NCBI GenBank assembly: GCA_018242585.1
Contig: JAFEBQ010000010.1
Location: 1-64,000 of the forward strand
DNA: 64,000 nucleotides
Direction of reading: 5' to 3'
Source of the DNA: Planctomycetota bacterium
Lineage (GTDB): Bacteria > Planctomycetota > Planctomycetia > Pirellulales > PNKZ01
The notes beneath the pieces are model-generated. The model was not told the DNA's origin and did no database searches. It saw nothing but the letters and a program-made list of their open reading frames with translations. Below, piece by piece: positions 6,426-62,418 of the stretch (position 1 is the first letter of the stretch; the number at the start of each line of letters is the position of its first letter). Both the position numbers and the translations under genes were made by a program.

Positions 6426-6428
6426 GCG

Positions 6429-6977
6429 ATGATGGCCGTCCCTCCGCAAGTGGCGCCGCTGTACGGCTTGCTGGCCGAGTTCGACCAAAGCGACGAACTC
6501 GTCGCAGCGGCGCGCCAGGCTTACGCCGCGGGCTATCGGATGATGAATGGCTATTCGCCATTTCCGGTACACGGCTTGTCCGAGGCGCTCGGGCAAAAGT
6601 CGTCACGCCTGCCGTTGATCACGCTGCTCGGCGGCCTGTGCGGTGGGGCGGCGGCGTATTACATGATGTACTATGCGTCGGTCGTGAGCTATCCGCTCAA
6701 CATTGGTGGCCGGCCGCTCCATAGCTGGCCGGCGTTTCTGCCGATCACGTTCGAGTTGACCGTGTTGGCGGCGGCATTCGCGGCGGTGCTGGGGATGCTG
6801 GCCTTGAACGGCCTGCCCCACCCGCACCATCCCCTGTTCAACGTCCCCGAGTTCAAGCTAGCCAGCCGCAGCAAGTTCTTCCTCTGTATCCAGTCGCGTG
6901 ATCCGCGGTTCACGTTGATCGAGACCGCCGAGTTCCTCGCTCGCCTGCACGGCAAAGTACACGAGGTGCCGCGATGA
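6429..6977 (+). CDS. actD: Alternative complex III subunit ActD (DUF3341)
   Basis: The 182-aa protein begins with a soluble part (LYGLLAEFDQSDELVAAARQ, GYSPFPVHGL) typical of DUF3341/ActD. Two transmembrane helices follow at about residues 60-80 and 100-123, then a short cytoplasmic tail. In known ACIII structures ActD is an accessory membrane subunit with no redox cofactor, and none is visible here. The stop overlaps the actE ATG by 4 bases, in keeping with translational coupling. Confidence 0.92.
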   Translation: MMAVPPQVAPLYGLLAEFDQSDELVAAARQAYAAGYRMMNGYSPFPVHGLSEALGQKSSRLPLITLLGGLCGGAAAYYMMYYASVVSYPLNIGGRPLHSWPAFLPITFELTVLAAAFAAVLGMLALNGLPHPHHPLFNVPEFKLASRSKFFLCIQSRDPRFTLIETAEFLARLHGKVHEVPR

Positions 6978-7654
6978 GGCTGCCGGGCGTCAATACGGCG
7001 GCCGCGGTCGTCCTGTGCATCGTGGCGAGCAGTTGCGGCTGCGATCGCCTCGACATGTACGACCAGCCGCGCCACGAGGCGATGGAAGCGAGCAATTTCT
7101 TCCCCGATGGCTTGTCGGCGCGGCCACGCGTGCCGGGCACGATCGCCCGCGGACAGCTTCACGCGGACGAAGCGCTGTTCACCGGCCGGGTCGGCGGCCA
7201 ATCGGTAAGCCAACTTCCCGACGGCGCGCTGCGGGCCATCCATGCGCGCTTTCCACAACGCTTCAAACAACCGTTCGACAAGACCGACCTGGTCGAGTTA
7301 CGACAAGCGCTACTTGAGCGCGGCCACGAACGGTTCGACATTTACTGCTCGGTCTGTCATGGCGGCGCCGGGGCCGGCGACGGGATGATCGTGCGGCGCG
7401 GCTTCCGCAAGCCGCCGTCGTTCCATATCGACCGCCTGCGCAACGCGCCCGCCGGACACTACTTCGACATCGTGACGTCGGGCGTCGGCGCCATGCCCAG
7501 CTATGCCAGCCGGATCGGCGCCGCCGATCGCTGGGCGATCGTGGCGTACGTGCGGGCATTGCAACTGAGCCAGAACGCGCGACTGGACGATGTGCCAGCC
7601 GATGCGCGGTCGATACTGGATGCTGCCAGCGCGCCGGCGGGAGCGAAGCCATGA
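6974..7654 (+). CDS. actE: Alternative complex III subunit ActE, monoheme cytochrome c lipoprotein
   Basis: The 226-aa protein has an N-terminal hydrophobic stretch ending in ASSCGC, a lipobox-like site, and one heme-binding CSVCH at residues 125-129. GVGAMPSYASRI near residue 175 supplies a Met suitable as the axial ligand. It should be the membrane-anchored monoheme cytochrome that, with ActA, delivers electrons from the complex. It overlaps actD and actF by 4 bases each. Confidence 0.92.
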   Translation: MRLPGVNTAAAVVLCIVASSCGCDRLDMYDQPRHEAMEASNFFPDGLSARPRVPGTIARGQLHADEALFTGRVGGQSVSQLPDGALRAIHARFPQRFKQPFDKTDLVELRQALLERGHERFDIYCSVCHGGAGAGDGMIVRRGFRKPPSFHIDRLRNAPAGHYFDIVTSGVGAMPSYASRIGAADRWAIVAYVRALQLSQNARLDDVPADARSILDAASAPAGAKP

Positions 7655-8865
7655 GCCAGGCTCGGGCCCCGTGGGCAACCACCACGGAGTTGAATGTCAC
7701 GCTGCAACGGACGGCGCGCCGGGCGCTGCTCGTCGCGGTGGTGGCCGGCGCGGCCACGGCCTATGGCTACTCAACTGACCGCGCCGAGTTCTATCCGGCG
7801 TATTTGACGGCGCTGATGCACTGGCTGGGAATGGCGCTCGGCTGCCTGGGAACGTCGATGCTCCACGGCCTGAGCGGCGGCGGCTGGGGGCGGACGATTC
7901 GGCGCGTGCTCGAGGCGGGCTATCAGACGTTGCCACTGCTGATGCTGCTATTCCTCCCGATCTGGCTGAACGCCGCGCATATCTACGAGTGGGCCGATCC
8001 CGAAGTGGTGGCCCATCACAGGTCGCTGCAACTCAAGACGGACTATTTGAACATCGCGGGTTACCAGACCCGGGCGGCAATCTGCTTTGCCGTGTGGATT
8101 GGCGCCGGCTTTTTCCTGACTCGTTTCACGCCGCTGGGCGACACTCGCCCCTACTCGCCGCGCAGCCGCAAACTGCAGCGCGTGAGTGGGCTGGGGCTGA
8201 TCGGCTATGGGCTGGCCATTACCGTGGCCGCGGTCGATTGGGTAATGTCGCTGGAGCCCGAGTGGTTCTCGACGATGTACGGTGTGTTGTACCTGGCCGG
8301 ACAAGCGGTGTCTGGGATGTCGTTCGCGTTGATCGTCGTGGCGCTACTGGAAAGGTACGAGCCCTGGGGCAGGTCGCTGCTGCCGTCGCGGTGCAATGAC
8401 TTGGGGAATCTGCTGCTGGCGTTCATCATGTTCTGGGCCTACGTGTCATTCATGCAGTACCTGATCATCTGGTCGGCGAATCTACCCGAGGAGAACGTCT
8501 GGTATCTGCATCGCGAGACGGGGGACTGGCGCGCGGTCGTCGCGGCGCTGATGATCCTGCACTTTGGCGCGCCGTTCTTGATGTTGCTGTCGCGCGAGCG
8601 GAAGCAAAGCGCTCGGGGCTTGCTACCGGTCGCGGTGTTGCTGCTTGTCATGCGCTACGTCGACCTCACCTGGCTGATCGTGCCAGGGTTCACCCACGGA
8701 CATGGCCACGAAAGCGTCACCGGCATCTCGTGGCAAAGCGTCGCGGCGTGGCTGGCGATCGGCGGCGCGTGGACGGCGATGTTTTGCTGGCGATTGTCGG
8801 CGCGTGCCGTGGTTCCAATCCATGATCCCGAAGCCCGGGAGGCTGCCGATGAGCACGCCCATTGA
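7651..8865 (+). CDS. actF: Alternative complex III subunit ActF, NrfD-like membrane protein
   Basis: The 404-aa protein has about ten hydrophobic helices, for example TAYGYSTDRAEFYPAYLTAL, YGLAITVAAVDWVMSLEP and LLLAFIMFWAYVSFMQYLII. The SLEPEWFSTMYG segment is characteristic of ActF. It is the second NrfD-type subunit of ACIII and forms the membrane core with ActC. The C-terminus ends in EHAH and overlaps the next gene by 17 bases. Confidence 0.93.
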   Translation: MSQARAPWATTTELNVTLQRTARRALLVAVVAGAATAYGYSTDRAEFYPAYLTALMHWLGMALGCLGTSMLHGLSGGGWGRTIRRVLEAGYQTLPLLMLLFLPIWLNAAHIYEWADPEVVAHHRSLQLKTDYLNIAGYQTRAAICFAVWIGAGFFLTRFTPLGDTRPYSPRSRKLQRVSGLGLIGYGLAITVAAVDWVMSLEPEWFSTMYGVLYLAGQAVSGMSFALIVVALLERYEPWGRSLLPSRCNDLGNLLLAFIMFWAYVSFMQYLIIWSANLPEENVWYLHRETGDWRAVVAALMILHFGAPFLMLLSRERKQSARGLLPVAVLLLVMRYVDLTWLIVPGFTHGHGHESVTGISWQSVAAWLAIGGAWTAMFCWRLSARAVVPIHDPEAREAADEHAH

Positions 8866-9289
8866 CCCGCCCACGCCTGACCCGCCCACGCCTGACGGGC
8901 CCCAGCACGGCGGTCACGAGAAACGCGATGTCCAGGTCCGCGCGGTCGCGCAATTTGGCCTGGGCGTGATGCTCCTGATTCTCGGTTCCTTGGCGGTGAT
9001 TCACCGGCTGGTCAACCATTACAACGCCGAGGCCGACCAAGCCGCGGGCCCAACCAGCCCGCTAGCCGCCGACCAGACACCCCCCGAACCACGGCTAGAG
9101 ACGACGGTCGGAGGGGCGTTCGACCAATATCGCGCCCGAACCGAGCAGGTGCTGACGACCTACGCATGGATCGATCGCGAGCAGCGCGTGGTGCGAATTC
9201 CAGTCGCACGGGCGATCGAGTTGCTGGCCAAGCGCGGTTTGCCCGAGCCAAAGCAATTGACCACTCCGGCCAAGGAGCGTAAGCCGTGA
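8849..9289 (+). CDS. Small single-span membrane protein of the ACIII-sco cluster, unknown
   Basis: The start at 8849 is chosen because GGGAGG lies just upstream; it overlaps actF by 17 bases and gives 146 aa. The N-terminus carries a direct duplication of DPPTP (15-bp repeat at about 8865-8895), followed by one transmembrane helix (FGLGVMLLILGSLAVIHRLV, about residues 36-55). A periplasmic region follows with a Tyr/Trp-containing segment (TTYAWIDREQRVVRIPVARAIELLAKRG) that may be a small folded module. No metal- or heme-binding motif is seen. Its position between actF and sco suggests an assembly or accessory role in the ACIII-caa3 system; this is inference. Confidence 0.85.
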   Translation: MSTPIDPPTPDPPTPDGPQHGGHEKRDVQVRAVAQFGLGVMLLILGSLAVIHRLVNHYNAEADQAAGPTSPLAADQTPPEPRLETTVGGAFDQYRARTEQVLTTYAWIDREQRVVRIPVARAIELLAKRGLPEPKQLTTPAKERKP

Positions 9290-10185
9290 CGCACATGCGA
9301 ATGATCCTGGCGCTGGGGGCGATCATCCTGCTTTTATCAGGCGTGGATGTACGCGCGCAGCGATTCGCTTCGGCCCCGTACGGCACGCCGGCCGGTTCGA
9401 GCCCCAGCGCGGAGATGCTGCGCGACGTGGGCATCGAGCAACACCTCGACGCCCAGTTGCCGCTGGATGCCGAGTTTCGCGACGAAACGGGCAAGACCGT
9501 GCGCTTGGGTGATTACTTCCAGGACCAACCGGTGGTCGTGCAACTGGTCTATTACCAGTGCCCGATGCTTTGCAACCAGGTGTTGAATGGTTTTCTGAAG
9601 TGCAGCCAGGCGGTGCCGCTCGAGATCGGCCGCGACTATCAAGTCGTCACGGTCAGTTTCGACCCCCACGAAGGGGCCGACCTGGCCGCCAAGAAACGCG
9701 AAAGCTACGCGCGGGCCTATCGTCGCCCCGGTGGCGCGGAAGGTTGGCACTTTCTGACCGGCGACGAGGCAAGCATCAAGCGGCTGGCCGCGGCGATCGG
9801 CTTTCGCTACCGCTATGACCCGGCGAGCAAGCAGTACGCCCACGCCAGCGGCATCTTCGTGGCCACGCCCAGCGGTCGTCTGAGTCGTTACCTCTATGGC
9901 ATCGAATACCTGCCGAACGATTTGCGATTCTCGCTGGTGGAAAGCTCGTCGGGCCGAATCGGCTCGCCAGTCGACCAGGTGCTGTTGCTCTGCTTCCACT
10001 ACGACCCGCTGACAGGCAAGTATGGCGTGGCGATTTCGCGCGTGTTGCGCGCCGCGGGCGGCTTGACCGCGCTGGCCTTGGGGGGCTTTGTCGTGGTGAT
10101 GTTTCGCCGCGAGCGTAAACGGATGCGATTGGTTCGCCCCGCGGCGGGCAGCAAGGTTGCCGAGGATCTGACGCCACGGACTTAG
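9286..10185 (+). CDS. sco: SCO1/SenC family copper chaperone for cytochrome oxidase
   Basis: A GTG start at 9286 overlaps the preceding stop (GTGA) and sits eight bases after AGGAG; the ATG at 9295 is too far from that site. The 299-aa protein has an N-terminal signal or anchor (MILALGAIILLLSG), a thioredoxin-like domain with the copper motif CPMLC at residues 92-96 and a conserved His near 186 (YAHASG). A C-terminal transmembrane helix (AGGLTALALGGFVVVMF) follows. Sco proteins load copper into the CuA site of oxidase subunit II, and the CuA subunit is encoded by the next gene, 2 bases downstream. Confidence 0.93.
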   Translation: MTHMRMILALGAIILLLSGVDVRAQRFASAPYGTPAGSSPSAEMLRDVGIEQHLDAQLPLDAEFRDETGKTVRLGDYFQDQPVVVQLVYYQCPMLCNQVLNGFLKCSQAVPLEIGRDYQVVTVSFDPHEGADLAAKKRESYARAYRRPGGAEGWHFLTGDEASIKRLAAAIGFRYRYDPASKQYAHASGIFVATPSGRLSRYLYGIEYLPNDLRFSLVESSSGRIGSPVDQVLLLCFHYDPLTGKYGVAISRVLRAAGGLTALALGGFVVVMFRRERKRMRLVRPAAGSKVAEDLTPRT

Positions 10186-42362: not shown

Positions 42363-43364
42363 ATGGTTCACATGTATCGCTCGCGATTGATGATGATTGG
42401 CTGCTGGCTGGCCTGGGGCATCTTGATCGGCGTCGCCGGCGCTCAGGCCCCGTCAAAGACACCCGCGCCGACCGCTGGCCCGCCGACCGCCAAGCAAGTG
42501 ATCGTCGGCATGTACTTGAACCAGGTCGACAGCGTCAGCCTGAAGGACAGCCAGATCGTCGTCGACTTTCATATCTGGTTCCGGTGGAAGGATGCCGACC
42601 TAAAACCGATCGAGACGTTCGACGTGGTCAACGGCAAGATTGAGTTGAAGGAAGACATCGTCACCAAGGACGACGTCAACGGCTATCGCTACGCCTGCTG
42701 TCGGGTGCTGGCCACGATTCACAAGCTGTGGGACGTGTCGCGGTTTCCGCTCGACGAGCACGAGCTGCTGATCGAAATCGAGGACGGCGACTTCGAGGAA
42801 GACAAGGTCCGCTACATCGCCGACGTCGAGAACAGCGATCTGAACCCCGACGTGGAAGTGGCCGGCTGGAATGTTGGCGAGTGCCCCGTCTCGGTCATCA
42901 CCCACCGCTACAACACAAACTTTGGCGACACGACGCTCGAGACCGGGCACGGCTCGAACTATTCGCGATTCCGTTTTCCAGTGCTCCTGTCGCGACCGAG
43001 CTACGGCATGTTCTTCAAGCTGCTGACCGGCATGTTCATCGCCTCGGCCATCGGGCTGCACGCGCTGTTGATCAAGCCCAGCGAGCTGGACGCGCGGTTC
43101 GCGTTGACCGTGGGGGCGATGTTCGCCGCCGTGGCCAGCGAATACGTGGTGGTCTCGTCGCTGCCCGAGGCCAATTACCTGACGCTGGCCGACAAGCTGC
43201 ATATCCTGACGTTCACGTTCATCTTCGCATCGATGGCCGTCTCGGTCGTTTCCTACAAGCTGGCCGAAACCCGCCGGTTGCACCTGTGCCGCTTGATCGA
43301 CAGCGCGGCGTTCATCACGCTGGGCGCGGCTTACATCGTTACGGCGTACAAGCTGGTGGTGTGA
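42363..43364 (+). CDS. Pentameric ligand-gated ion channel (Cys-loop receptor)-like protein
   Basis: The protein is 333 aa from 42363; ATG 42372 is equally possible. A signal peptide ([20 protein letters not shown]) precedes a beta-rich ligand-binding-like domain with [20 protein letters not shown], the W-x-D element FRWKDADL and the hallmark [15 protein letters not shown] (FPxD-x-Q/H). Four helices follow: [20 protein letters not shown], then a pore-like M2 ([20 protein letters not shown] then SSLP), [20 protein letters not shown] and [19 protein letters not shown]. The order and the M2-M3 Pro loop fit prokaryotic pLGIC relatives. The two Cys of a true Cys-loop are not conserved. Ligand and ion selectivity are unknown. 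Confidence 0.82.
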
Positions 43365-43516
43365 GCCGGGGCGGCCGGGCCGCACTTGGCTGCGATTTTG
43401 CACTAAACCACGCGAGACTCGCCGCTTTTTTGGCGTCAGATCCACCCGACTGTTGCTTCTTTGTCGCCCGGGCTTCATCTACAATGGCACCCATCCTTGC
43501 AAGGGGAATGGGCAGC

Positions 43517-46500
43517 ATGGGCATCGATCTCGATTCGTTCGTCAAGCAATTGTCCAGCGCTGGCATTCTGCCAGCCGACAAGCTCGAACGATTTGTGCCG
43601 CCCCAGGCCCACCCCAAGACGGCCGAGGAGCTGGCCCAGGAACTGGTCAAGAGCAGCGAGCTGACGAAGTTCCAGGCGACCCAAGTCCTGGCCGGTCGGG
43701 CCAAGGCGCTGCTGCTGGGCAACTACACGTTGCTCGACAAGATCGGCGCCGGCGGCATGGGCCAAGTCTTCAAGGCCCAGCATCGCCGCATGAAGCGACT
43801 GGTGGCGATCAAGATGCTGCCGCCCGCCCTAGTGAAAGACGCCGCCGCCCTGGCGCGCTTTCAACGCGAGGTCGAAGCGGCCGCGCGCCTGGCCCACACC
43901 AACATCGTGGCCGCCTTCGACGCCGACGAAGCCAACGGCACGCACTTCTTGGTCATGGAATACGTCGAGGGAAAAGACCTCTCGGCCACCGTCAAAGAGC
44001 GGGGGCCATTGCCGGTGGACGAGGCGATGAACTATATCCTACAAGGCGCGCGCGGGCTGGCCTATGCGCACGCCGAAGGAGTCGTCCACCGTGACATCAA
44101 GCCGGCTAACTTGCTGGTCGACAAGAAAGGCGTGGTCAAGATTCTCGACATGGGGCTGGCCCGGTTCGAAGACGCGAACGCGGCCGACCATCAATTGACC
44201 AACACCGGCGCGGTGATGGGAACGGTCGACTACATGGCACCCGAGCAGGCCGCCGACACCCGGCGGGCCGACGCGCGCAGCGATATTTACAGCCTGGGCT
44301 GCTCGCTGTTTCGCTTGCTGACGGGGGGCAACGTCTTTGAAGGGGAAACGGTCGTCAAAAAGATTCTGGCCCACATGCACGACCCGATCCCTTCGCTGTC
44401 GGATCGACGAACCGACGTGCCGGCCGAGGTCGACCAGATCTTTCAGCGGATGATGGCTAAGCGTCCCGAGGATCGGTACCAGACCGCGGCCGAACTGGTC
44501 GCGGCGATCGAGGCTTGGCGGGGCGGAACTTCACAGGCCTCGGTTACCTCGGGCTCGCAAGGTGGCGCGCAGCTCAGCAACTTCTTCAACAATCTGACGC
44601 TGCCAAGCGAACCGGGTTCGTCGCCATCGGCCGCGTCGAAGCCGAGCACCAGCGCTACCGTGCCAGCCGACAGCGCCACGGCGGCGTTTGGCATTCAGCA
44701 TCTGAAGAATCTGCCGACCGGGAGCACCATTTCGGCGTCGCGGGCCGAGTTGGATACCGATCCGAAGAGCGAGCGATTCTTGCCGAGCTTGAAATCGGCC
44801 GTCAAGAATGGCGGCGCGGCTGGCGGCGCCGTGCCGCCGTGGAAGAGTCCCCTGGCCCTGGCCGGTGCGGGAAGTGCGGGCTTTTTGCTGGTGGCGTTGG
44901 GAGCCTGGTGGTTTGTATTCCGCGATTCATCCGGCAAGGAATTGGCGCGGAGCGAAGCCAAGCCCGCCCAGAAGGTGCAGACCGCTCCGGGCACGACGGT
45001 CGAAGTCGTGAAAGATGGGCAGCCAGCTACGGTCGTACTGGGCGGGGGCAAGAAGATCACCACCTACGACACGCCCGAGTTCAAGCGCTGGCTCGCAAGC
45101 ATCGCGTTCCTCTCGGTTGAGAAACAGATCGACGCCGTCAGCAAAAAGTTGCAAGGGCTGAATCCAGGGCACGATGGCAAGCTTTACGGGTACGAATGCA
45201 AGGGAACGCCCAAGATCGAAGGGGGCAAGGTGACCGAGGTGGGCCTACAGCCAGCCAACCTGGTCGATCTTTCTCCGCTGCGCGCTTTCAAAGAACTGTG
45301 GGCGTTGTCGTGCAACGGCGCGGGTCCGCTGGCCGATTTGTCTCCGCTGCGCGGCCTGAAGCTGGGGCGATTGAACTGCAACGGCGTTAATAACATCACC
45401 GATTTGACGTCTCTGACGGGCATGCCTCTCACCTACATTCACCTGTACAACACCCAGGTTGCCGATCTGAACCCGCTGCGCGGAATGCGGCTTGTGAGCT
45501 TGTACCTGCAGCACACCCGGGTGACCGATTTGTCGCCGCTGGTGGGAATGCCCCTGCAGTACCTGGAATGCCACACAACGCCGATCAGCGACGTAACGCC
45601 GTTGGCCAGCATCGCATCGCTGAAGAGAATCACGCTATACGGCACCAAGATCACCGAAGCCGACGTGGCGACGCTACAGAAGGCCGTGCCCAATTGCCAG
45701 ATCGAATGGCCGAGCCAAGGCCGACTCTACGTGCCAGGCGAGTCGACGCCCGCGCCGCCGCCCGATGCGGCCAATGCCGTGTTCTTGGACGACCTGAAGC
45801 CGACCAAGACGGCGAACTTGCATCTTCAGTTGGGGACTCGCGGGCGCACCAACAGCAACAAAGCTTTCACCTGGCGCGGAGGTCAACCGCAACATTCATT
45901 GTTCGCCCATCCCAACGGCGCGGGGCCCACGACGGTGTCGTACGCAGTGGATGGCAAATACGAACGGTTCCGCGCGACCGTCTGCCTGGTGACAGATCTG
46001 CAAGACAAGCAAGCGTCGGTGTCGTTTCGAGTGCTCGGCGATGATCGCCCGCTCTGGCAATCGGGCGCCTACAGCACCACCGACCGATCGGAAGACTTTG
46101 ACCTCGACGTGCGCGGCATCAAGCAATTGACGCTCGAGATCACGACACGCGGCGGCATCGGCGCCATGCACCCCGTCTGGCTCGACCCGCGGCTGATTAA
46201 AGCGAGCGCGGCCGCTGCGCCAGCGCTCGCCGGCGACGGTTGGCGGTCGTTGTTCGATGGCCAAGACCGGCAGGCCCATTGGACCGCCAAGGGGGGCGGC
46301 GCGTGGAGCGTCACCGACGGCGCGCTAGTCGGCAAGACCGACAGCCCTGGCTGGCTGATGTCCCGAGAAGAATTCGACCACTTCGAGTTCGCTTGCGAGT
46401 ACAAGCTGTCACCGGAAGGAAACAGCGGTATCTTTCTGCGAGCCCACGCCGACGGTCCCGTCAGCGGCAGCGATTTCCTTGAAGTCCAACTGCTCGACAA

Positions 46501-46807
46501 TGCCGCGCCCAAGTTCGCCGCGCTCAATCCCAAGCAAAAGAATGTCGCGCTGTACAATCAGTTGGCGCCGCGGACTTCCCCCCCTGCCCCGGCCGAGCAG
46601 TGGAATCAGATCCAGGTTCAATGCTATGGCGCGCACGTTCGCGTCACGTTGAACGGCACGCTGGCGCTTGACGGCGAGATGACGTCGAAGCTCCGCGAGC
46701 GCGGCCACATCGGCCTGCAACTTTATCCCAAGCAAGTCGAGTTCCGCAACCTGCGCGTGCGGCCGCTGAGCAGCGACGGCACGCCGAGTTCCCCAATCAA
46801 CCGCTGA
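43517..46807 (+). CDS. Transmembrane Ser/Thr kinase with LRR-like, NPCBM and DUF1080 ectodomains (kinase 1)
   Basis: The ATG at 43517, ten bases after AAGGGGA, aligns with the starts of kinases 3 and 4 ([12 protein letters not shown] with MAITAKEFLESL); the protein is 1096 aa. Residues 1-68 are a helical module ending [21 protein letters not shown]. The kinase (about 70-335) has [26 protein letters not shown] instead of DFG, and APEQ. A low-complexity linker leads to a single helix at about 443-468. Outside the cell follow leucine-rich repeats (about 584-731; [28 protein letters not shown]), an NPCBM-like beta-sandwich (about 752-895) and a DUF1080 domain (about 907-1090; [19 protein letters not shown]). 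It likely couples extracellular, perhaps carbohydrate, binding to phosphorylation. Confidence 0.9.
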
Positions 46808-52488: not shown

Positions 52489-52563
52489 CGCTTGCCAGTT
52501 CGCCACGCGCTGCGCCGCGATTGGAACGCGCCACACGCTCACAAGAGCTACTCTAGCCGCGCC

Positions 52564-54774
52564 CTACCGCCCGTCGAAGACCATCGTTTCGGCTGGTGGC
52601 CTGGTGTCGATCGAGCGCTTCGCGTCGGGCACCGGCGCGTCGAGCGTGGCGTCCATGTCGGTTGGCAGCCCGGCCCACCAGGCTTCGGCGTCGGCGCGCG
52701 TCCAAGGTTTTGTCAGCCGGCACTGGGACAACAACTCGGCCAGTTCCTCGGCCGATTGGGGGCGGGCCTCCTTGTTCTTGGCCAGGCAGCGGTGAATCAA
52801 TGCTTCGAGGTCCGGTGAAATCGGCCCCGGCGTGCGCGACGAAAGTGGCGGCGGCGCTTGAGTCAGATGTTGATGGCAGACCTCCATCACGTTTTTGCCG
52901 TCAAAGATGTTCTGGCCGCAGAGCAGAAAATAGCCGACCGCGCCAATCGCGTACAAATCGCTGCGAGCGTCAACCGCGTCAGGCGTGTTCACCGCCTCGG
53001 GAGACATGAAGTGGGGCGTCCCCACGAACGAATACGCCTTGGTCACCGCGGCGTCCCCCAGCGACGCGATCGTTTTCACCAACCCGAAGTCCAGCACCTT
53101 GAGCACGTCGAACTGTCGCCCGCGGCGATTCAACAGCAAGTTGGCGGGCTTGATGTCCCGATGGATCAGCCCGCAGGCGTGGGCCTCGGCCAATGAACCG
53201 CACAGTTGTCGAAGTATCTCGACGACGCGTCCCTCGGGCTGAGGGCCAAACTTGCGGACCAGCACGTCGAGCGGAATGCCGTCGAGGTACTCCATCACGT
53301 AATAGAACACCCCTTGCGCCGTGCGGCCGTAGTCGTAAATCGCAATCGTGTTCGGATGAGTCAGTTGGCTGGTCAACTGGACTTCGCGTTCAAAGCGGGC
53401 CAGCGCCTCGTCGGAGTTGACCTGCGGGTGCATCAGCTTGACGGCCGTCGGGCGGCGCAGCAGCGCGTGGCGCGCTTGGTAGACCGCCCCCATCGCTCCT
53501 TCGCCCAGTTTGCGCTCCAGGGTGTATTGGCCAAGCTGTTTGGTTTCGACCTCGGCCACGCGCAACGCCAGCCGCAACCGCGACGCCCAGAGCACGGCAA
53601 TCAGCATCCCAAAGCCAGTCAACACCAACAGCGCGAAGACCACGCCGAAGGCGACCTGCACGTAGCGCAGCGGTTCGAAGGCTTCGGCGTAGTCAACCTG
53701 GGTAGCGACGCCAAAGTTGTAGGCGGGCAACCAGCGCCACGCGCCGATCACCGGCACGCCGCGATAATCGCGGCTGCCGTCGACATCGACACCATCCCGG
53801 CCCGCGGTCGCTTCGCTGGCAATATGCGTCAATGGTCGCTCGACGCCGACGGGCGTGCGCGCGCCGCTGGCCAAATCGACCAGCGGATCGCGCAGCCGCA
53901 ACGTGAGAATCGACTGGGCGTCTTCATCGTCGGGCAACAAGCCAAGTTGCTTCAGTCGGCCATCGAACCGGCTCGACGACAGCAGCAGCCCATCACGATT
54001 GAACGCATAAGACTCGCCGCTGGCGCCGAACTGGGCGGTGTTGAGGATCTTGGTGAACTCGACCTCGGGAATGATTCGCATGCAGAGCGCGGCGATGACT
54101 TTGCCCGCTTCGTTCCTCACTGGCCCACAGGCGAACATCGTCGGCACCCCCGACCGCAAGCGGCCACGCCGATCGGGCAGAAACGCCGCGCTGGGAATCG
54201 GCTGGGACACGGTCGGCTCGCCGGCCAGGGCTTTGCGCAGCCAACCGACTTCGGGGTAAATATCGCTCATCGTCTTGCCGACCGTTTCGTCGTGCTTCGA
54301 CGCGAGGACGCGGCCGGCGGGGTTCACGATGGTAAAGCCGTTGTGCCTGGCGGTGATACGGGGCGTGCCCAGCAACGTGCGCACGCGCGCCAACTCGGGC
54401 GCCTGCAACAGCTCGACGGTCGTGGCCTGTCGCTCGCCCAGGGCCAGCAGCCCCGCGATGTCCTCGACCAGTTCGCCGTTCTCGGCCAGTTCGGCGACGT
54501 TGTCGCTCTGCTCGCGCAGCCAGAAATCGAGCGCCGTCAGGTCAGCCTTGAGAATGGTGTTCAATTCTTCGGCCAGCTTGGCCTCGAGACTGTTCTCGAC
54601 CGTCCGATAAAGCAGCCACCCCACCACGGCCAGCACCACGGCAGTCACTACGGGGCCAATCCAGGCTTGTTGTCGCAGTGTCCGCGCCGCCCCCTGCAGC
54701 GACGTCCCGCGGCTCAGCGAGCGCACCGAATGAGGCAGGATTTTGAACCGTGATTGGCTGGCTTCTTGATTCAT
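52564..54774 (-). CDS. Transmembrane Ser/Thr kinase with dCache-like sensor (kinase 2)
   Basis: The 736-aa protein has a first helix at about 39-59 (IGPVVTAVVLAVVGWLLY), an extracellular region of about 300 residues with the double-Cache pattern (GFTIVNPAGRVLASKHDETV; GKVIAALCMRIIPEVEFTKI; SGESYAFNRDGLLLSSSRFD) and a second helix at about 370-396. The kinase (about 418-690) has [34 protein letters not shown] and SPEA. The topology is that of a chemoreceptor sensor fused to a kinase instead of a methyl-accepting or histidine-kinase domain. It starts 11 bases after the LamG gene stop on the same strand. The N-terminal module of the other three kinases is absent. Confidence 0.92.
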   Translation of the reverse strand: MNQEASQSRFKILPHSVRSLSRGTSLQGAARTLRQQAWIGPVVTAVVLAVVGWLLYRTVENSLEAKLAEELNTILKADLTALDFWLREQSDNVAELAENGELVEDIAGLLALGERQATTVELLQAPELARVRTLLGTPRITARHNGFTIVNPAGRVLASKHDETVGKTMSDIYPEVGWLRKALAGEPTVSQPIPSAAFLPDRRGRLRSGVPTMFACGPVRNEAGKVIAALCMRIIPEVEFTKILNTAQFGASGESYAFNRDGLLLSSSRFDGRLKQLGLLPDDEDAQSILTLRLRDPLVDLASGARTPVGVERPLTHIASEATAGRDGVDVDGSRDYRGVPVIGAWRWLPAYNFGVATQVDYAEAFEPLRYVQVAFGVVFALLVLTGFGMLIAVLWASRLRLALRVAEVETKQLGQYTLERKLGEGAMGAVYQARHALLRRPTAVKLMHPQVNSDEALARFEREVQLTSQLTHPNTIAIYDYGRTAQGVFYYVMEYLDGIPLDVLVRKFGPQPEGRVVEILRQLCGSLAEAHACGLIHRDIKPANLLLNRRGRQFDVLKVLDFGLVKTIASLGDAAVTKAYSFVGTPHFMSPEAVNTPDAVDARSDLYAIGAVGYFLLCGQNIFDGKNVMEVCHQHLTQAPPPLSSRTPGPISPDLEALIHRCLAKNKEARPQSAEELAELLSQCRLTKPWTRADAEAWWAGLPTDMDATLDAPVPDAKRSIDTRPPAETMVFDGR

Positions 54775-54785
54775 TCGCGAGAACC

Positions 54786-55628
54786 CTAGCGCAGCGTGGC
54801 AATGCCCCGTTCGAGCTTAAAGAGCTGCTCGACCTCTTGATCGCTAAGCGGTCGATCGAACACCGCCAAGTCGTCCAGGTGGCCGACGTACGAGGCGCCA
54901 AGCACCAGGGCCACCTGGGCCGGATCCCAGCCCAAGGTCAGCTCCCAATTCTCGATTCGGCCTTGCGGCTTGCCGTCGAGGTACAGGCTGCCCGATGGCT
55001 TGTGGGCTTTGTCGTTGAGGTGCGAGATCGTGAACACCACGTGCGTCCAACGCTGGCGATCGAACGGCGCGTTGGCCACTTGGACCATCGGCCGCTTCTC
55101 GAACGGAATCTGGTCCCACTGCACGCCGGTCGGATTCCAGATGTGGACCAACGGACGAATGGCATAGCGGAAGAATCGCGGCGTTTCATCCTTGGACCAC
55201 TCCAGGAAGATGAAGCCCTTTTTGCCGTCGTCACCGACGATCTGCACCGGATCGCAATAGCCGGGCTCCAGATCCTGGTCGGGCGTCAAGCGCAACCAGA
55301 CCGAGACCGTGGCGTTCCAATTCGAGTCGTTGTAGCCCAGCATGCCGACGCCGCTGAACTGCGGACGCGTCGTCCCTTTCTTGGGAAAGGAAATCGCGCC
55401 GCCGAACTTTCCCGCGCCCGAGACGAGCTGTACCTCGTCACTGGGCGCTACGGGTACAAGCTGCTGCCCCTTCTTGACGACACAATGCGTGTCCCCGCGG
55501 CTAAAGTCGGCGTCGAACGACGAATCGAACGAGGCATGAAACGTCAGCGACCGTTTCAGCGCCTGGGGGGCCTGAGCCCAAGCGACCGCGGGTACGAGAC
55601 AAGCCAAGACAGTCAGGATCGTTCGCAT
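54786..55628 (-). CDS. Secreted LamG/concanavalin-like domain protein
   Basis: The ATG at 55628 gives 280 aa with a signal peptide (MRTILTVLACLVPAVAWAQA); the earlier in-frame start at 55715 adds a second hydrophobic lead and is less likely. The mature protein is a single beta-sandwich of LamG type: LTFHASFDSSFDADFSRGD, FGGAISFPKKG, WNATVSVWLRLTPDQDLEPG and GSLYLDGKPQGRIENWELTL, ending with LDDLAVFDRPLSDQEVEQLF. Such domains bind glycans or proteins on the surface. It lies directly upstream of kinase 2, so it could be its soluble partner; this is inferred from context. Confidence 0.85.
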   Translation of the reverse strand: MRTILTVLACLVPAVAWAQAPQALKRSLTFHASFDSSFDADFSRGDTHCVVKKGQQLVPVAPSDEVQLVSGAGKFGGAISFPKKGTTRPQFSGVGMLGYNDSNWNATVSVWLRLTPDQDLEPGYCDPVQIVGDDGKKGFIFLEWSKDETPRFFRYAIRPLVHIWNPTGVQWDQIPFEKRPMVQVANAPFDRQRWTHVVFTISHLNDKAHKPSGSLYLDGKPQGRIENWELTLGWDPAQVALVLGASYVGHLDDLAVFDRPLSDQEVEQLFKLERGIATLR

Positions 55629-55763
55629 GGTGGGCACTCGCAGGAGGGAAGCAGGGCAGGAATCCAGCACGCCGGCCGTCACAATAACCGCCACCATAAC
55701 GAGCTGGCGTCGCAACGCAATGCGGGAGTTGGAAAGTTAAAGAAGGCTCGCGGCTTTCCGAGC

Positions 55764-58700
55764 TTAGTGATCCCATTCACAAACGAACCAGAACAAGCGC
55801 CCCTGATTCGTGTCGGAAGCCTCGGCTTTGATCTGCCCTTGCTCCGCGCGAACGCTCCAGTACAGATGATCCTCGGCGCCATTGCCGTTGTTGGGTTCAT
55901 TGACGGCCCAATTGACAACGTCGCGGCCGACCGATGAGCCATCCAGCCAGGCGAATTGGCCTTCGTTCTTGACGTCGCTGGCCCCCAGCCAGAAATCCAG
56001 TCGCTCGCCCAGGCCGGCTTGCTGGGCCTGTTGCAAGACAAACCGCGAAACAAATTGTCCCTCGGCGGCGGATTCCAAGCAGAGCATCGCGCCCCCCATC
56101 CGCTCGCACGCGGCGCGTGCCGTATCCCAGGTCACGGGCATGGCAAAGAACTTGTACCAGCGATCTCCGAACTTAATCGCATCCAGGGGATGTCGCTGCG
56201 AGAAACTGGCGTTGCTCAGCTTGCGCAGGTTGGCAAGCTGCACGCGGCGCTTGTCGATAATGTTCCGCGATGGTCCCGTCGCGTCTTCCACTGCCGACAT
56301 GTACCAGCGGGCGGCTCGTTCCATGGTCAGCGCCTTGAGCGCTCCGGCGAGCTTCTCGCTGGCTTGCCACCACAGCTCGCCCAACTTGACCTTGGCGGCA
56401 GCCTCGACGGGACGTTCTTGCTCGGCCAACGCAATCTCACGCCAGGGTGTGTCGCTGCCCGACTCAAAATCGGCAATGGCGGCGGCGGGCTGGTTGCGCA
56501 CCAGCAACAGATAGCGCCCGCGGGCGGCATGCGCCTCGCGATCGTCGGACTGCTCGCGCAGCTTGGCCTCGGCAGCCAGGCCAAGTTGCTGTTCGTCGCG
56601 ATAGAACTTGAGTTCCATTTCACGAGCCTTGGCCTCGCGGCTGGTGTCTTGGTCCAGCTTTCGCTTGGTCTTTTGCCAAGCGCTCAGCAATTCGACCGCC
56701 AACCCATATTGGTCGAGGAGCGCCGCCCGCTCGCTACCACGCCAAGCCTCGTCGGCCAGCGCCTCGCGTGCCGCGTTCGAGCGGCCGGTGCGGAACAACT
56801 CGGCCACGGCGCGTTGTTCCATGTCGCTCGGATCAAACGCGAAGAAGCGTCCCAGGTCTTCGAGCGCCGTGAGCGTGACCGGCACGTCTCCCGCCTCGGC
56901 GGCCAACTGGGCGGCCAATTCCAGGGTGGCCCAGCGTTGCAGATCATCCAGTTCCAGATCACACGTCGTGGTCAACAAGGCTTCAGCAACGGTCAGCTTC
57001 GCGTCGGGCGTCGCCGATTTGTCGGTCGCCTTGCTGTACTGCTTGCCCAGCATTTCGACCGCGGCGGCGCGCTCGGACACGCTGGGCGGAGCGACGGGCT
57101 GCCAGTCCAACGGCCGTACGTCGAGCTTTGTCACCCGCCACGAAGAGCGCGAGCCACCCACCCAAGTGGACAATCGACTGGGGACCGACCATTCACGACG
57201 TTCCCCATAGGGTGCCCAGCCGGCCTTGGTCTCGAAGGCCAGTTGGCCGTCCACCATGACTTGCGGCCCGCTGTTGCGAGCGATGAACTCGACTCGATGC
57301 TGCTGGCCTGGAACCAGGAGCGCGGGGGCTCGATTGTGATGCGCGGCTTCCAGCGCTTCGCCATTCGTGGCCACGCCTGCTTTGGACATGGCTTCGCCAT
57401 CGACCACCAGCGGGGCGCGTCGTTCCTGCATGGGAAGCCCGACGGCAAAGCCCCCGCTTCCGCCCAGTCGTTCGACAATGGCCGTCACCACGTATTCATT
57501 CGGCAAGCTAACGGGAAGCGCCAGCCGATTGGTTGTATTCTCGTTTGGCTTCAGGATCACGACGCCGCGGGCTTTCTGCCACTCGCCGCGCTCGGTGTCA
57601 CGTTTGACGTCGACCGACGCGATCAGGTCCAAGGGCCGGTAGCCATGAATCGCTCGTTTCGGCGGCGAGATTTCAAACTTGGAAATCTCGAACTGCGTGT
57701 CCTTGCCCTGCACTCCCAGGAACAGTTGGCGTCGATTGCGCGATTGAAAGAACGTCGGCAACCCTAGGTCGCGAGGATCGCCTTGCCAATCGATCGCCAG
57801 GCGATTGTCCACGTAGGCGCTGACGTGATTCTTGCGAACCAAGCAGACGACCTCGCACGGCGTGTCGTGCGGAAAGGTCACAATCCGCCGCGCGGCGGGC
57901 AGGTAGCGGCTGTCCCCCGTGGCGGCATCCAGACCGATGAACTGTGGTGAATCGTTCGCGGCCGTTTCGATATTCAGGCGGGTTTGCGCCTCGCCCACCA
58001 CTAGTCCGATCGCCAGCCGGCCGTTGCCTGCCGTGCGCTTGGCGACCAGGCGCAAATCGTATTCCTCGGGCGGAGTGTACGGGACCATGACGCGAAGATT
58101 GACGCCCTTGCCGGCCAGGTTGGAAAGCGCGCCATTGACCAGTTGCCAATCGCCCTCGATCGTGTCGCGAGTCGGGTCGACGCGCGAGAGCAAGTCGGTG
58201 GCGCCACCCGTGGCGTCTTTCGACTTCTGTCGCGTCAAGTCGTCGAGCGCCGACTTGACGATGGCTTCGGCATTGGTCTTCGACCCCAGCGGCACCAGGC
58301 GAACATTGCGAAACTTGAACGCCGCGTCCCATGTCCCAAGCGCCAAGCTATCGGTACGCGGCAGCGCACGATCCGCTGCCAGGGAAAGCTCGGTGGTCTT
58401 GCCCTTCCAATCGGTGATTGTGGTCGTGTCGCAGGTCACCTTAATGGCCCCGTCGCGCACTACGCACGCGATCAGCATGGGGTCATTTGACCCCAGGAAC
58501 GTGCCGCGGTTCGCCGATCGGTTGCCGGCCGTGGCGACGTACCTTCCCTGCAACAAGCTCAGGCCGCTGATCGTGCCCCGATTGGCGTCGATCACGGCCA
58601 GCACCTGACGCCCGCCGCATGCGATGGTCAGCTGCAACTCGTGCGAGGAGCCCAATCGTTCGACCTCCAGCAGCAGCACGTACTCGCGCGGCGCGCCGGT

Positions 58701-60431
58701 CGGGAACATCACGCGCGCCGGCTTTGCGATCGGCGCGATGAGCTGTCCCGGCTCCTGCCGCCACTCCCCCTCGATGACATCGCGCGAAAGATCAACAAGC
58801 GGCAGCAAGTCGACCGGTTGACCAGGCTTCCATTTGACGCTGACTCGCGGCGGCGCGTCGTCTGGACTGGCGGCCGGCGGCGGCGCGGGAGGAGGAGACG
58901 GCTTCACCGCGGGCGCGGGATTCTGATTCTCAGGTGTTGTGGGAACAGGTGCAGGTATTTCAGGCTTACTCGCCCTTTGCGGCTCAGGATTCGGCATGGT
59001 GGGAGGCGTGGTCGCCACCGAGGGATTCTCGGCTAGCTTCTCACCGTCGCCGCCTGACATTCCCCAAAGCACTAATGCAACGGCAACGACCACGGCCAGG
59101 CCTGCGCCGGCGACAAGCAAGCCCGTTCGACGCGGGGCTTCGGGCTCGGGCAATGCCTGAGCGCCAGGTGGGAACGAGGGCTGGCGCACGGCCGTAACTG
59201 GGCTGCCAACCGGCATTGCATAGACCAGGGGCACCGCGGTCAGCACCCCTGGCGGGGCCAGGGCCGGCGCGTCGCTGCGCGACGAACCGATCGAAGAGCC
59301 GCCACGCTGAATGCCCGACGAGCCGGGAGCGGACAGGAACGCGGCCGCATCGGCCGCGGGCATCACGTCGTCGAGCACGCTGATGGATGAATCGTCGTCC
59401 GAAACACCGCTCAACAAGGCGCCGAGCGCCGTGGCAACTTCACTTGCCGTTTGCACGCGCCGGGCCGGATCTTTGGCCACCATCTTCTGAAACAGCGCGT
59501 CGAGCCTGGCGGGAACCTCGGGGCGCACCGCGCGAAGTGAAGGGATCGGGTCTTCGCGATGAGCCCACAGCTTCTTAACCAGGGTATCGGCCTCGTAGAC
59601 CGGACGCCCCGTCAGCAGCCGGTAAAGAGTGCAGCCCAGGCTGTAGATGTCAGCGCGGCTGTCGGCCCGACGGGCGTCGCGAGCCTGCTCGGGGGCCATG
59701 TAATCGATCGTACCCATCACCTGGCCATCGAGCGTCAAACCTTCGCGCGCCGCCGTCTCGGCTTTTTCCGACGCATCGGTCAAGCGCGCCAGGCCCATGT
59801 CCAGAACCTTGACAGTCCCTTTCGTATCGACGAGCAAGTTTGACGGCTTGATGTCGCGATGCACCACCAACATGCCATGCGCGTATTCGAGTCCGCGCGC
59901 GGCCTGCATAACACAGTTCATGGCCTTCTCGATCGGCAACGGCCCTTGCTTGGCCAACAGCGACGACAAGTCCTTGCCTTCGACATATTCCATGACCAGA
60001 TAATGCAAGCCGTTCGTTTCGCCAGCGTCAAAGGCGGTGACGATATTCGGATGCACGAGCTGCCCGGCCGTTTCAACTTCCTGGTAGAAGCGTTTGACGT
60101 TCTGCGGGTCGTGCATGGAATGAGGCGGCAGCAACTTGATCGCCACGATTCGCTTCATGCGGCGATGGCGTGCCTTGAAGACCTGGCCCATTCCTCCGGC
60201 GCCAAGCCGGTCGAGCACGACGTATTCGCCGAACACCAGCCCCTTGCCGCGGCCGTGATAGATGTTGTGCGCCTGGTACTTGGTCAGTTTTCCCTGGCGG
60301 ACGAGTTCCTTGGCGAGCTGCTCGGCGTCGTTGGCGTCGGCAACGCACAGCTTGACGGTTGCCAGCTCATCGCCCGGCAAGAGATTGAGCGTCGACAGGC
60401 TTTCCAAGAACTCTTTAGCTGTGATGGCCAT
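55764..60431 (-). CDS. Giant Ser/Thr kinase with three repeats and a C-type lectin domain (kinase 3)
   Basis: The 1555-aa protein shares the N-terminal module (residues 1-68, LTKYQAHNIYHGRGK) with kinases 1 and 4. The kinase (about 70-335) has [25 protein letters not shown] and DMG in place of DFG. A Pro/Ala/Ser linker precedes a single helix (about 435-460, GLLVAGAGLAVVVAVALVLW). Outside are three related repeats at about 538, 744 and 933 (DLLPLVDLSRDVIEGEW, DLLSRVDPTRDTIEGDW, DLIASVDVKRDTERGEW), a helical Ala/Glu-rich part at about 1110-1400, and a C-type lectin-like domain at about 1416-1555 (WDTARAACERMGG, WLGASD, NEPNNGNGAEDHLYW, WFVCEWD). The EPN triplet is the mannose-type Ca2+/sugar motif. 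Confidence 0.92.
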   Translation of the reverse strand: MAITAKEFLESLSTLNLLPGDELATVKLCVADANDAEQLAKELVRQGKLTKYQAHNIYHGRGKGLVFGEYVVLDRLGAGGMGQVFKARHRRMKRIVAIKLLPPHSMHDPQNVKRFYQEVETAGQLVHPNIVTAFDAGETNGLHYLVMEYVEGKDLSSLLAKQGPLPIEKAMNCVMQAARGLEYAHGMLVVHRDIKPSNLLVDTKGTVKVLDMGLARLTDASEKAETAAREGLTLDGQVMGTIDYMAPEQARDARRADSRADIYSLGCTLYRLLTGRPVYEADTLVKKLWAHREDPIPSLRAVRPEVPARLDALFQKMVAKDPARRVQTASEVATALGALLSGVSDDDSSISVLDDVMPAADAAAFLSAPGSSGIQRGGSSIGSSRSDAPALAPPGVLTAVPLVYAMPVGSPVTAVRQPSFPPGAQALPEPEAPRRTGLLVAGAGLAVVVAVALVLWGMSGGDGEKLAENPSVATTPPTMPNPEPQRASKPEIPAPVPTTPENQNPAPAVKPSPPPAPPPAASPDDAPPRVSVKWKPGQPVDLLPLVDLSRDVIEGEWRQEPGQLIAPIAKPARVMFPTGAPREYVLLLEVERLGSSHELQLTIACGGRQVLAVIDANRGTISGLSLLQGRYVATAGNRSANRGTFLGSNDPMLIACVVRDGAIKVTCDTTTITDWKGKTTELSLAADRALPRTDSLALGTWDAAFKFRNVRLVPLGSKTNAEAIVKSALDDLTRQKSKDATGGATDLLSRVDPTRDTIEGDWQLVNGALSNLAGKGVNLRVMVPYTPPEEYDLRLVAKRTAGNGRLAIGLVVGEAQTRLNIETAANDSPQFIGLDAATGDSRYLPAARRIVTFPHDTPCEVVCLVRKNHVSAYVDNRLAIDWQGDPRDLGLPTFFQSRNRRQLFLGVQGKDTQFEISKFEISPPKRAIHGYRPLDLIASVDVKRDTERGEWQKARGVVILKPNENTTNRLALPVSLPNEYVVTAIVERLGGSGGFAVGLPMQERRAPLVVDGEAMSKAGVATNGEALEAAHHNRAPALLVPGQQHRVEFIARNSGPQVMVDGQLAFETKAGWAPYGERREWSVPSRLSTWVGGSRSSWRVTKLDVRPLDWQPVAPPSVSERAAAVEMLGKQYSKATDKSATPDAKLTVAEALLTTTCDLELDDLQRWATLELAAQLAAEAGDVPVTLTALEDLGRFFAFDPSDMEQRAVAELFRTGRSNAAREALADEAWRGSERAALLDQYGLAVELLSAWQKTKRKLDQDTSREAKAREMELKFYRDEQQLGLAAEAKLREQSDDREAHAARGRYLLLVRNQPAAAIADFESGSDTPWREIALAEQERPVEAAAKVKLGELWWQASEKLAGALKALTMERAARWYMSAVEDATGPSRNIIDKRRVQLANLRKLSNASFSQRHPLDAIKFGDRWYKFFAMPVTWDTARAACERMGGAMLCLESAAEGQFVSRFVLQQAQQAGLGERLDFWLGASDVKNEGQFAWLDGSSVGRDVVNWAVNEPNNGNGAEDHLYWSVRAEQGQIKAEASDTNQGRLFWFVCEWDH

Positions 60432-60613
60432 CGCTGATCACCGCTAGCGTTCGTAGGAAACGGGCCAGTAGGAATGGGGGGATGGAATCTTCTATGGTAG
60501 CGCTGCAGGGCCCCCGCCACAAGCGTTAAAGAGAATTAACGCCAAGAACTTGACAATTGATCGTGCCAATCGGCCAAAGGTTCAAGGTGCGACACCGTGT
60601 CGGGGGCTATGGC

Positions 60614-61981
60614 CTAGCCGAACAGGATGACGAGCCCCACCACCAAGGCCAGCAACGCCACCCCCGCCGCTACCGCGATCATCGGCAGGTAAGAAAACTT
60701 TCGAGGTGGCACCTCGACCGGAAGCGAAACCGTTGGCTCGTTGGCCCGGCTTGGAGCGGCAGGTCCAGTCGCGCCAGCTTGGATCGCGGCTTGATTAAAG
60801 CGCGCCGTCACCTCGGCCTGATAGATGCTGCGCATCTGTTGCATGCCCATCGCCGCGGTCATGCCGTCTTCGACATATTGGGGGCTCGCCGGCGCGGCAA
60901 AGACTCGCGGCGGCGGTGGCGACTCGGCCTGTGCCGCGCTGTCGGCGCCCGAAGCGTTTCCGGCGGCGCGCTGCATGCAGAAGCGTTCCAGATCGACGAG
61001 CAACTCGCCTGCATTCTGGTAACGGTCTTCAGGGCGCTTGGCGACCATTCTCGCGAAGATGCGATCGAGTTCGGCCGGGGCGTCTGGTCGCTTGGCACAC
61101 AAGGACGGGATCGGGGCTTTGAGATGAGCCAGGATTTTTTGGATGGGGGTATTCCCCTCGTAGACGCTTTCGCCCACGAGGACGCGGAACAACGAACAGC
61201 CCAGACTATAGACATCGCTCCGCGCGTCGGCGTGACGCATGTTGTTCGCCTGCTCGGGCGCCATGTAGTCGACCGTCCCCATCACCACTTCAGAATTGGT
61301 GAGCTGCTTGTCGGTGGCTTCGGCGTCCTCGATCAGCGCCAAGCCCAGATCGAGCACCTTGACGACTCCTGATTGGTCGAGCAGCAAATTGGCGGGCTTG
61401 ATGTCGCGATGAACCACGCCCTGGGAATGGGCATAGGCCAGCCCTCGCGCCGCCTGGGTGATGTGATCGACCGCGTTGTCGATGGCAAACCGGCCGTACT
61501 TCTTCGACAGCGCGGAAAGATCGCTCCCCGTGATGTATTCCATCACCAGGTAGGGGATGCCGTTTGTTTCGGTGGCGTCGAAAGCGATGACGATATTCGG
61601 ATGATTGAGTTTGGCGACCACTTCGGCTTCGCGTTGAAAGCGCGCCGTGGCCGCGGCGTCCTTCGTCAAGCCGGGCGGAAGCATCTTGATCGCCACCACG
61701 CGTTTCAAGTGGCGATGCTGGGCTTTGTACACCTGCCCCATGCCCCCTTCGCCAATCTTCTCGAGCAGGACATAGTTGCCCAACAAGAGGTTCTTGAATT
61801 TGCCAGCGACAATCTGCTCGGCCTGGAACTTGGTCAACACGCCTTTCCTGATCAGCGCCCGCAATAAGGCGCCCGGGTCCGAAGTCGACGCTGCGGCCGT
61901 AACGAACGGGCGCAGTTGATCGGAATCAACGACGCCGCTGTCTTCAATTCGCTTGATGATGGTTTCAAGCGTCACGGCCAT
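60614..61981 (-). CDS. Tail-anchored Ser/Thr kinase (kinase 4)
   Basis: The ATG at 61981 (MAVTLETIIKRIE) aligns with the starts of kinases 1 and 3; the earlier frame start at 62071 overlaps the TerB-like gene. The protein is 455 aa. The shared N-terminal module (VLTKFQAEQIVAGKFKNLLL) is followed by a kinase (about 70-335) with [33 protein letters not shown] in place of DFG, and APEQ. A linker with AMGMQQMRSIYQAEVTARF precedes a C-terminal membrane helix (LPMIAVAAGVALLALVVGLV) that ends the protein. It has no extracellular domain, so it may pair with the other kinases or with the TerB-like protein encoded 59 bases upstream. Confidence 0.92.
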   Translation of the reverse strand: MAVTLETIIKRIEDSGVVDSDQLRPFVTAAASTSDPGALLRALIRKGVLTKFQAEQIVAGKFKNLLLGNYVLLEKIGEGGMGQVYKAQHRHLKRVVAIKMLPPGLTKDAAATARFQREAEVVAKLNHPNIVIAFDATETNGIPYLVMEYITGSDLSALSKKYGRFAIDNAVDHITQAARGLAYAHSQGVVHRDIKPANLLLDQSGVVKVLDLGLALIEDAEATDKQLTNSEVVMGTVDYMAPEQANNMRHADARSDVYSLGCSLFRVLVGESVYEGNTPIQKILAHLKAPIPSLCAKRPDAPAELDRIFARMVAKRPEDRYQNAGELLVDLERFCMQRAAGNASGADSAAQAESPPPPRVFAAPASPQYVEDGMTAAMGMQQMRSIYQAEVTARFNQAAIQAGATGPAAPSRANEPTVSLPVEVPPRKFSYLPMIAVAAGVALLALVVGLVILFG

Positions 61982-62040
61982 GAATTGCGCTCGGGGGTAA
62001 GTGGCATCACCATGACAACGACGATTCTGGCGCGGAACGC

Positions 62041-62418
62041 TCAGCTCACCAATTGCCGAATCCGATCGCAAAGTTGGCGCTCGTGGTCGGCCACGGCGCC
62101 GTCAGCCCGGGCGATGGTGTCCATGCAATTGAGCACCAGGTCGCGCCATTTGGGCTGTCGCAGCGAATGCACCCGATTCAGTGCGGTGGCCAACACATTG
62201 CTGAAGCCCTGGTTCTTGATATCTTCGATGAACTGATCGATGCCTTGCTCGACGGCCTGTGGCGTCCAGTTGAAGCCGGCGTCGCGCACCACCTGTTTGA
62301 TGCAATCGCGTTCCGACTTGGTGGCCTTGCCGTCGATGGCCATGACCGAACAGACCAGTCGAAAGACGGCCGTTTCGCGAAACTCGTCGAACTCGTTCGT
62401 GGCCGCAGGCTCGGTCAT
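62041..62418 (-). CDS. TerB-like (tellurite-resistance TerB/DUF533-type) small protein
   Basis: The 125-aa protein is all-helical, with RLVCSVMAIDGKATKSERDC at about residues 20-40 and a second copy of the pattern, LNCMDTIARADGAVADHERQ, near 100-118. The AxADG-xxxxxE form is the TerB signature that resembles metal-binding loops. It is cytoplasmic and has no signal. The gene lies 59 bases upstream of kinase 4 on the same strand, so the two are probably co-transcribed. TerB-like proteins are often linked to membrane-associated stress complexes, so a role as a kinase partner or substrate is plausible but unproven. Confidence 0.83.
   Translation of the reverse strand: MTEPAATNEFDEFRETAVFRLVCSVMAIDGKATKSERDCIKQVVRDAGFNWTPQAVEQGIDQFIEDIKNQGFSNVLATALNRVHSLRQPKWRDLVLNCMDTIARADGAVADHERQLCDRIRQLVS

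Follow-up and report, generated by a model that had tools for sequence, protein, structure and literature searches.

Does any bacterial receptor kinase sense sugars through a C-type lectin domain? The question is raised by a single gene in the window, which is the whole 64,000-nucleotide stretch of a planctomycete contig that was analysed. A 2017 survey based on Pfam 31 stated that C-type lectin receptor kinases are absent in bacteria (PMC5485988). The gene in question reads through 1,555 codons without interruption, and its parts are as follows.

55764..60431, minus strand: whole gene, 1555 aa, for a Ser/Thr kinase of receptor type that carries three predicted jelly-roll repeats, followed by a helical module and a C-type lectin domain
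60237..60431, minus strand: N-terminal extension, aa 1-65, resembling that of many kinase paralogues in the genome
59424..60236, minus strand: Hanks-type kinase domain, aa 66-336, with K99, E118, D193 of HRD, N198 and D211 of DMG
59067..59123, minus strand: the sole membrane helix, aa 437-455, from hydropathy
58824..59054, minus strand: Pro/Ala-rich linker, aa 460-536
58290..58814, minus strand: repeat 1, aa 540-714, a probable jelly roll through its homology to repeat 2
57663..58196, minus strand: repeat 2, aa 746-923, a predicted concanavalin-type jelly roll (pLDDT 89.8; CBM66, Z 16.3)
57111..57629, minus strand: repeat 3, aa 935-1107
56214..57110, minus strand: alpha-helical module, aa 1108-1406, without a Pfam family and widespread in the order
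55770..56174, minus strand: C-type lectin-like domain, aa 1420-1554, in which Cys1442 and Cys1551 align at the positions of the conserved disulphide
55890..55898, minus strand: EPN triplet, aa 1512-1514, which is 185-187 in mannose-binding-protein numbering
55812..55814, minus strand: Asp206, where the canonical WND reads A-S-D

The two ends of the protein are recognized by Pfam. PF00069 matches aa 70-328 with an E-value of 4.2e-53, and the catalytic residues K99, E118, H191-R-D193, N198 and D211 are all in place, with DMG replacing DFG. By profile and catalytic residues the protein is a Hanks-type Ser/Thr protein kinase, and its activity is predicted. PF00059 matches aa 1433-1542 with an E-value of 8.6e-10 (39.8 bits, where the cut-off is 22.6). 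Between the two domains Pfam gives no match even at E 1, and the NCBIfam matches are to kinase families only, all far under their cut-offs. An earlier note, made from the DNA letters alone, had described a single frame holding a receptor kinase with one membrane helix, three related repeats, a helical part and a terminal C-type lectin-like domain. Its coordinates, strand and length are correct, as are its kinase assignment, its order of kinase, membrane helix and lectin-bearing ectodomain, and its reading of the motifs WLGASD (1481-1486), EPN (1512-1514) and FVCEW (1549-1553). Hydropathy agrees with it too, giving 437-455 as the only membrane helix.

Could so long a frame be an artefact? Faulty sequencing or assembly might have merged two adjacent genes, which the earlier note had named as its own possible undoing, or the resemblance to the lectin family might be due to chance. 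Nothing was found in favour of an artefact, and it is so improbable as to be negligible. Each part is backed by Pfam or by fold, and there are five further full-length relatives. Four of these come from other genomes, each from a different one, and two bacterial families are represented in all. The order of kinase, membrane helix, two repeats, helical module and lectin domain is found in L024, L042/L082, L044/L083, L047/L084 and L117. The three paired loci come from the same family as the window and L117 comes from another. Because these relatives share the kinase-to-lectin order, a gene-fusion error was rejected. The architecture is almost certainly real.

The nearest relative, L024, lies on contig 24 of the same genome and carries two repeats and the helical module and ends in a lectin domain whose triplet is QPD. 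This genome contains three lectin-domain genes, all of them giant kinases, and 43 matches to the window protein, the majority of which are kinases. Within the window's family, six of the seven genomes have lectin domains, nearly all within long frames. Across the phylum, Lectin_C was found at E 1e-6 in 66 of 392 sampled genomes. Among the loci examined, single frames that combine a kinase, a membrane helix and a lectin domain occur in seven families (f1, f14, f22, f50, f58, f68 and f86). Searching the order added an eighth (f104), and the named contig L086 has two more such frames. Pfam confirms both the kinase and the lectin domain in eight fusions from different sources. Fusions of this type occur in at least eight planctomycete families and are recurrent in the phylum. 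Nearly every fusion checked has exactly one membrane helix between the kinase and the lectin domain, the exceptions being a second borderline peak in L047 and overlapping peaks in L058, which is truncated.

In a tree of the lectin domains, the window domain falls into a well-supported group of five (99/96), all of which are kinases of the same build. Over the whole tree, kinase-lectin fusion needs 10 label changes, of which well-supported branches force only one, so that the fusion may have arisen once or several times. In three genomes Lectin_C matches lie within open frames of 4,500 to 9,800 codons (G062:C3, G313:C1 and G339:C7).

The C-terminal domain is predicted to fold as a C-type lectin, as the earlier note had supposed. 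An AlphaFold model of residues 1107-1555 (pLDDT 86.5) has about fifteen helices across some 290 residues, bearing out the proposed helical part, followed by the lectin domain. Compared with solved structures, the lectin part of this model gave, among the matches listed, only C-type lectin domains (Z 16.4-18.0), with alignments mostly of 110-128 residues and an rmsd of about 2. The top Foldseek matches are CEL-I (an EPN mutant), mincle and DC-SIGN; identity to CEL-I is 28-30%. Cys1442 and Cys1551 occupy the outer disulphide positions and are invariant in close relatives, so placed that a bond is predicted. The least certain part of the model is the EPN loop (model residues 403-413), where pLDDT is below 50; for this reason the geometry of the site is not predicted, whereas the fold itself stands.

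C-type lectin folds are also the fold class of targets diversified by retroelements (DGRs), and the loci of such targets include protein kinase domains (PMC10907252). Might the domain be a hypervariable antigen sensor of this kind, as in the conflict systems of other bacteria? This is very improbable. No reverse transcriptase (PF00078, RVT_1) was found in the genome, which is 99.9% complete, and a search of window 52500-60500 for paired template and variable repeats at least 30 bases long found none. On these two grounds a DGR target was rejected.

The more difficult issue is whether the domain binds calcium and sugar. Site positions are numbered here as in mannose-binding protein A, whose sequence was used for numbering only. 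The window domain keeps D161, E165, E185, P186, N187, E193, D194 and D206 and has N at 188. Its EPN triplet presumably contains a cis-proline. The WND motif that would complete calcium site 2 is degenerate, with Ala in place of Trp204 and Ser in place of Asn205. The earlier note had taken EPN as the known mannose/GlcNAc-type calcium motif; the triplet and most of the ligands are indeed present, but a complete WND is not. Because W204 and N205 are missing, EPN alone does not assign the domain to the mannose/GlcNAc class.

Six full-length members can be compared at this site (the window protein, L024, L042, L044, L047 and L117). In their lectin regions the relatives are 31-36% identical to the window protein. 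D161, E165, P186, N188, D194 and D206 are invariant in all six, whereas Asn205 is absent from all six. Position 193 is Glu except in L024 (Ser) and L117 (Gln). In animal lectins, positions 185 and 187 set the sugar class. Here the triplet reads EPN in the window protein and L042, QPD in L024 and L044, EPD in L047 and DPD in L117, so that 185 varies only among E, Q and D and 187 only between N and D. The calcium-site columns have a mean BLOSUM score of 4.7, against 2.3 for the rest. Of 20,000 random column draws, only 298 scored as high; with six related sequences this is a modest test. Judged from the alignment, the calcium site appears to be under constraint, yet it is not the textbook site.

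What if the site is a relic? In this scenario the lectin domain and the jelly rolls would be protein-protein or structural modules that bind neither metal nor sugar, and the kinase would sense a protein partner or the state of the envelope. The loss of Asn205 from every member, and of Trp204 from the window protein, fits this explanation. So does the fold comparison, in which Z to CLEC9A, LLT1 and NKR-P1, C-type lectin folds that do not bind sugar, is as high as Z to the sugar binders. Many animal domains with this fold likewise do without sugar binding (PMC5485988). In addition, many or most of the other kinase-borne lectin domains of the phylum lack the calcium-site triplet, which means that sugar binding is no general need of the kinase-lectin architecture. 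What does not fit is that six site positions are invariant at so low an overall identity, and that 185 and 187 alternate within E/Q/D-P-N/D rather than drifting freely. A protein-binding role is the main rival reading and a serious possibility, if on balance the less likely one.

Some lectin domains on other kinases have different versions of the site. Three short kinases of 644-779 aa from one genome, G113 (L064, L065 and L066), have the lectin domain directly behind the membrane helix, and in L064 this domain has EPN, E193 and a full WND. In L086, tandem kinases (3481-6717 and 6935-9604, plus strand) each have a lectin domain with QPN and W-W-D, and the first also bears a 3-keto-disaccharide-hydrolase domain.

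The repeats provide another view of the ectodomain. Repeats 540-714, 746-923 and 935-1107 match one another by BLASTP with E-values of 4.2e-14, 4.2e-11 and 4.7e-12, which establishes that the three are related, as proposed earlier, and not alike by chance. By sequence, a profile of the repeats found only weak matches among solved structures, the first being galectin-9 at E 0.004, and a comparison of folds was therefore needed. The model of repeat 2 has a pLDDT of 89.8 and was built on 11 aligned repeats, of which the window supplied three and four named metagenome contigs the other eight. Foldseek and a DALI-like aligner place it among the concanavalin-type jelly rolls of known structure. The closest fold is CBM66 of Bacillus subtilis (Z 16.3, rmsd 2.7 over 151 residues, 11% identity), followed by a galectin-like protein (Z 15.3) and the glycosyl-hydrolase-type BT3469 (Z 15.2); ERGIC-53 and legume-type lectins give Z 13-15. 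Repeat 2 is thus predicted to have a CBM66-type jelly-roll fold, with a DUF1080-type hydrolase almost as near. Of the earlier suggestion of DUF1080/jelly-roll repeats, the jelly roll holds as a predicted fold, whereas the profile of DUF1080 (3keto-disac_hyd, PF06439) does not match the repeats at E 1 or better. The likeness to CBM66 and to 3-keto-disaccharide hydrolases is one of fold alone, at about 11% identity.

The helical module gives the impression, from the helix pairs of its model, of being TPR-like. A helical-plus-lectin profile matches 177 of 396 genomes of the order, mostly via the helical part, and the module, present in L096, L104, L112, L122 and many other loci, is carried by kinases, by J-like single-helix proteins and by secreted proteins. 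At roughly 290 residues and without a Pfam family, it merits a family of its own. The J-like proteins begin with a module of about 90 residues, 'FDPYHxWLGIPPxxQPPxHYRLLG...', which is found at L112:2808-3156 (minus strand) and at the N-termini of L096, L097, L101, L104 and L115, has 27 invariant columns in six members and precedes a membrane helix and ectodomains like those of the kinases. No Pfam family matches it, and against solved structures it gives weak matches only, mostly to DnaJ J-domains (E 0.06-0.9). In L101 an Hsp70 gene (2808-4097, plus strand, E 4.9e-99) directly follows the gene for a J-like receptor with a lectin-type C-terminus, which fits the J-domain reading. These proteins carry the helical module with the same partners as the kinases do, including the repeats (L097, L107 and L111) and lectin domains (L094 and L101). 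Receptors would be expected to swap their outer parts in this way, with one set of them joined to either kind of inner part.

The gene is one of five closely spaced genes on the same strand (52564-62418, minus strand). They encode a TerB-like protein, a short kinase that ends in a helix, the kinase described here, a LamG-type protein and a further kinase, which weakly matches a dCache-like sensor. The LamG-type gene follows the present kinase after 48 bp, and the kinase with the weak dCache-like match lies 11 bp further on. In the stretches searched beside the relatives' genes, the LamG-type protein, the TerB protein and the small kinase are absent. A conserved operon partner was rejected, and because these neighbours are not conserved they were left out as evidence. 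Elsewhere in the window is another giant kinase (42728-46807, plus strand), with LRR, NPCBM and 3-keto-disaccharide-hydrolase-type domains in its ectodomain; the ectodomains of this sister kinase are sugar-associated.

The reading we prefer is a periplasmic glycan-sensing receptor kinase, to which we give a probability of roughly 0.55. The N-terminal kinase would lie in the cytoplasm, followed by the one membrane helix and a presumably periplasmic ectodomain of three CBM66/concanavalin-type jelly rolls, the helical module and the terminal lectin domain. Two features of the sequence are consistent with this topology, namely positively charged residues ahead of the helix and the two cysteines of the lectin domain. 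The ectodomain would bind a glycan, or else glycosylated material that is imported or belongs to the cell envelope, in part via the lectin-domain calcium site, most of whose ligands are retained, and the helical module may space or link the jelly rolls and the lectin domain. Binding would gather receptors, leading to autophosphorylation and onward phosphorylation, as in other one-helix bacterial kinases. Glycan sensing is favoured by the lectin fold, the CBM66-like repeats, the conserved calcium-site columns, the alternation at 185/187 and the ectodomains of the sister kinase. Against it are the missing Asn205 and Trp204, the low-confidence EPN loop, the many kinase-borne lectin domains without the triplet and the lack of conserved neighbours. 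Also in favour of the preferred reading are the Pfam matches of kinase and lectin domain above their cut-offs, the single helix in nearly every fusion and the precedent of established kinases of the phylum with TPR or WD40 ectodomains (PMC11032199).

Those membrane-bound Ser/Thr kinases of planctomycetes, whose periplasmic part is an array of TPR or WD40 units, are well described in the main text of Odelgard et al. (2024, PMC11032199). They share with the window protein an N-terminal cytoplasmic Hanks kinase, usually one helix, a C-terminal periplasmic ectodomain and a strong expansion of paralogues, but the window protein has jelly rolls, the helical module and a C-type lectin domain instead. 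That main text does not contain the word 'lectin', although its supplementary tables may list a Lectin_C entry without remark. The plant C-type lectin receptor-like kinases (PMC5485988) also have a lectin outside, one helix, a Ser/Thr kinase inside and a proposed role in sensing sugar via phosphorylation. However, their order is signal peptide, lectin, helix, kinase, whereas the window protein runs in reverse, from kinase through helix and repeats to lectin, and its lectin part is not preceded by a signal peptide. With CEL-I, mincle, DC-SIGN and mannose-binding protein the window domain shares the fold, one disulphide position, EPN and most calcium-site residues; unlike them it lacks the second Cys pair, has Asn205 replaced, is bacterial and is fused to a kinase. 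A literature search for the combination of kinase and C-type lectin returned nothing on point, and domain databases may already list individual fusions of this kind without comment. For today's sequence data, the window family contradicts the statement in PMC5485988, with the domain order reversed relative to plants. The arrangement is a surprising one for specialists.

Bacterial C-type lectin receptor kinases thus exist, repeatedly, in one phylum known for its large kinase repertoires. Perhaps this repertoire arose in planctomycetes separately from that of plants and with the domains in the opposite order, and duplicated receptors within one cell, bearing EPN (the window protein) or QPD (contig 24), tell mannose-class from galactose-class glycans by direct lectin-gated phosphorylation. 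We offer this tentatively and think it unlikely to hold in full. The six full-length members, two of them in one genome, form a test set in which one scaffold bears differing sugar triplets, so that ligand specificity would be predictable and testable by single substitutions. If the glycan-sensing reading is true, it would connect glycan sensing with protein phosphorylation in bacteria for whose kinases hardly any input is known.
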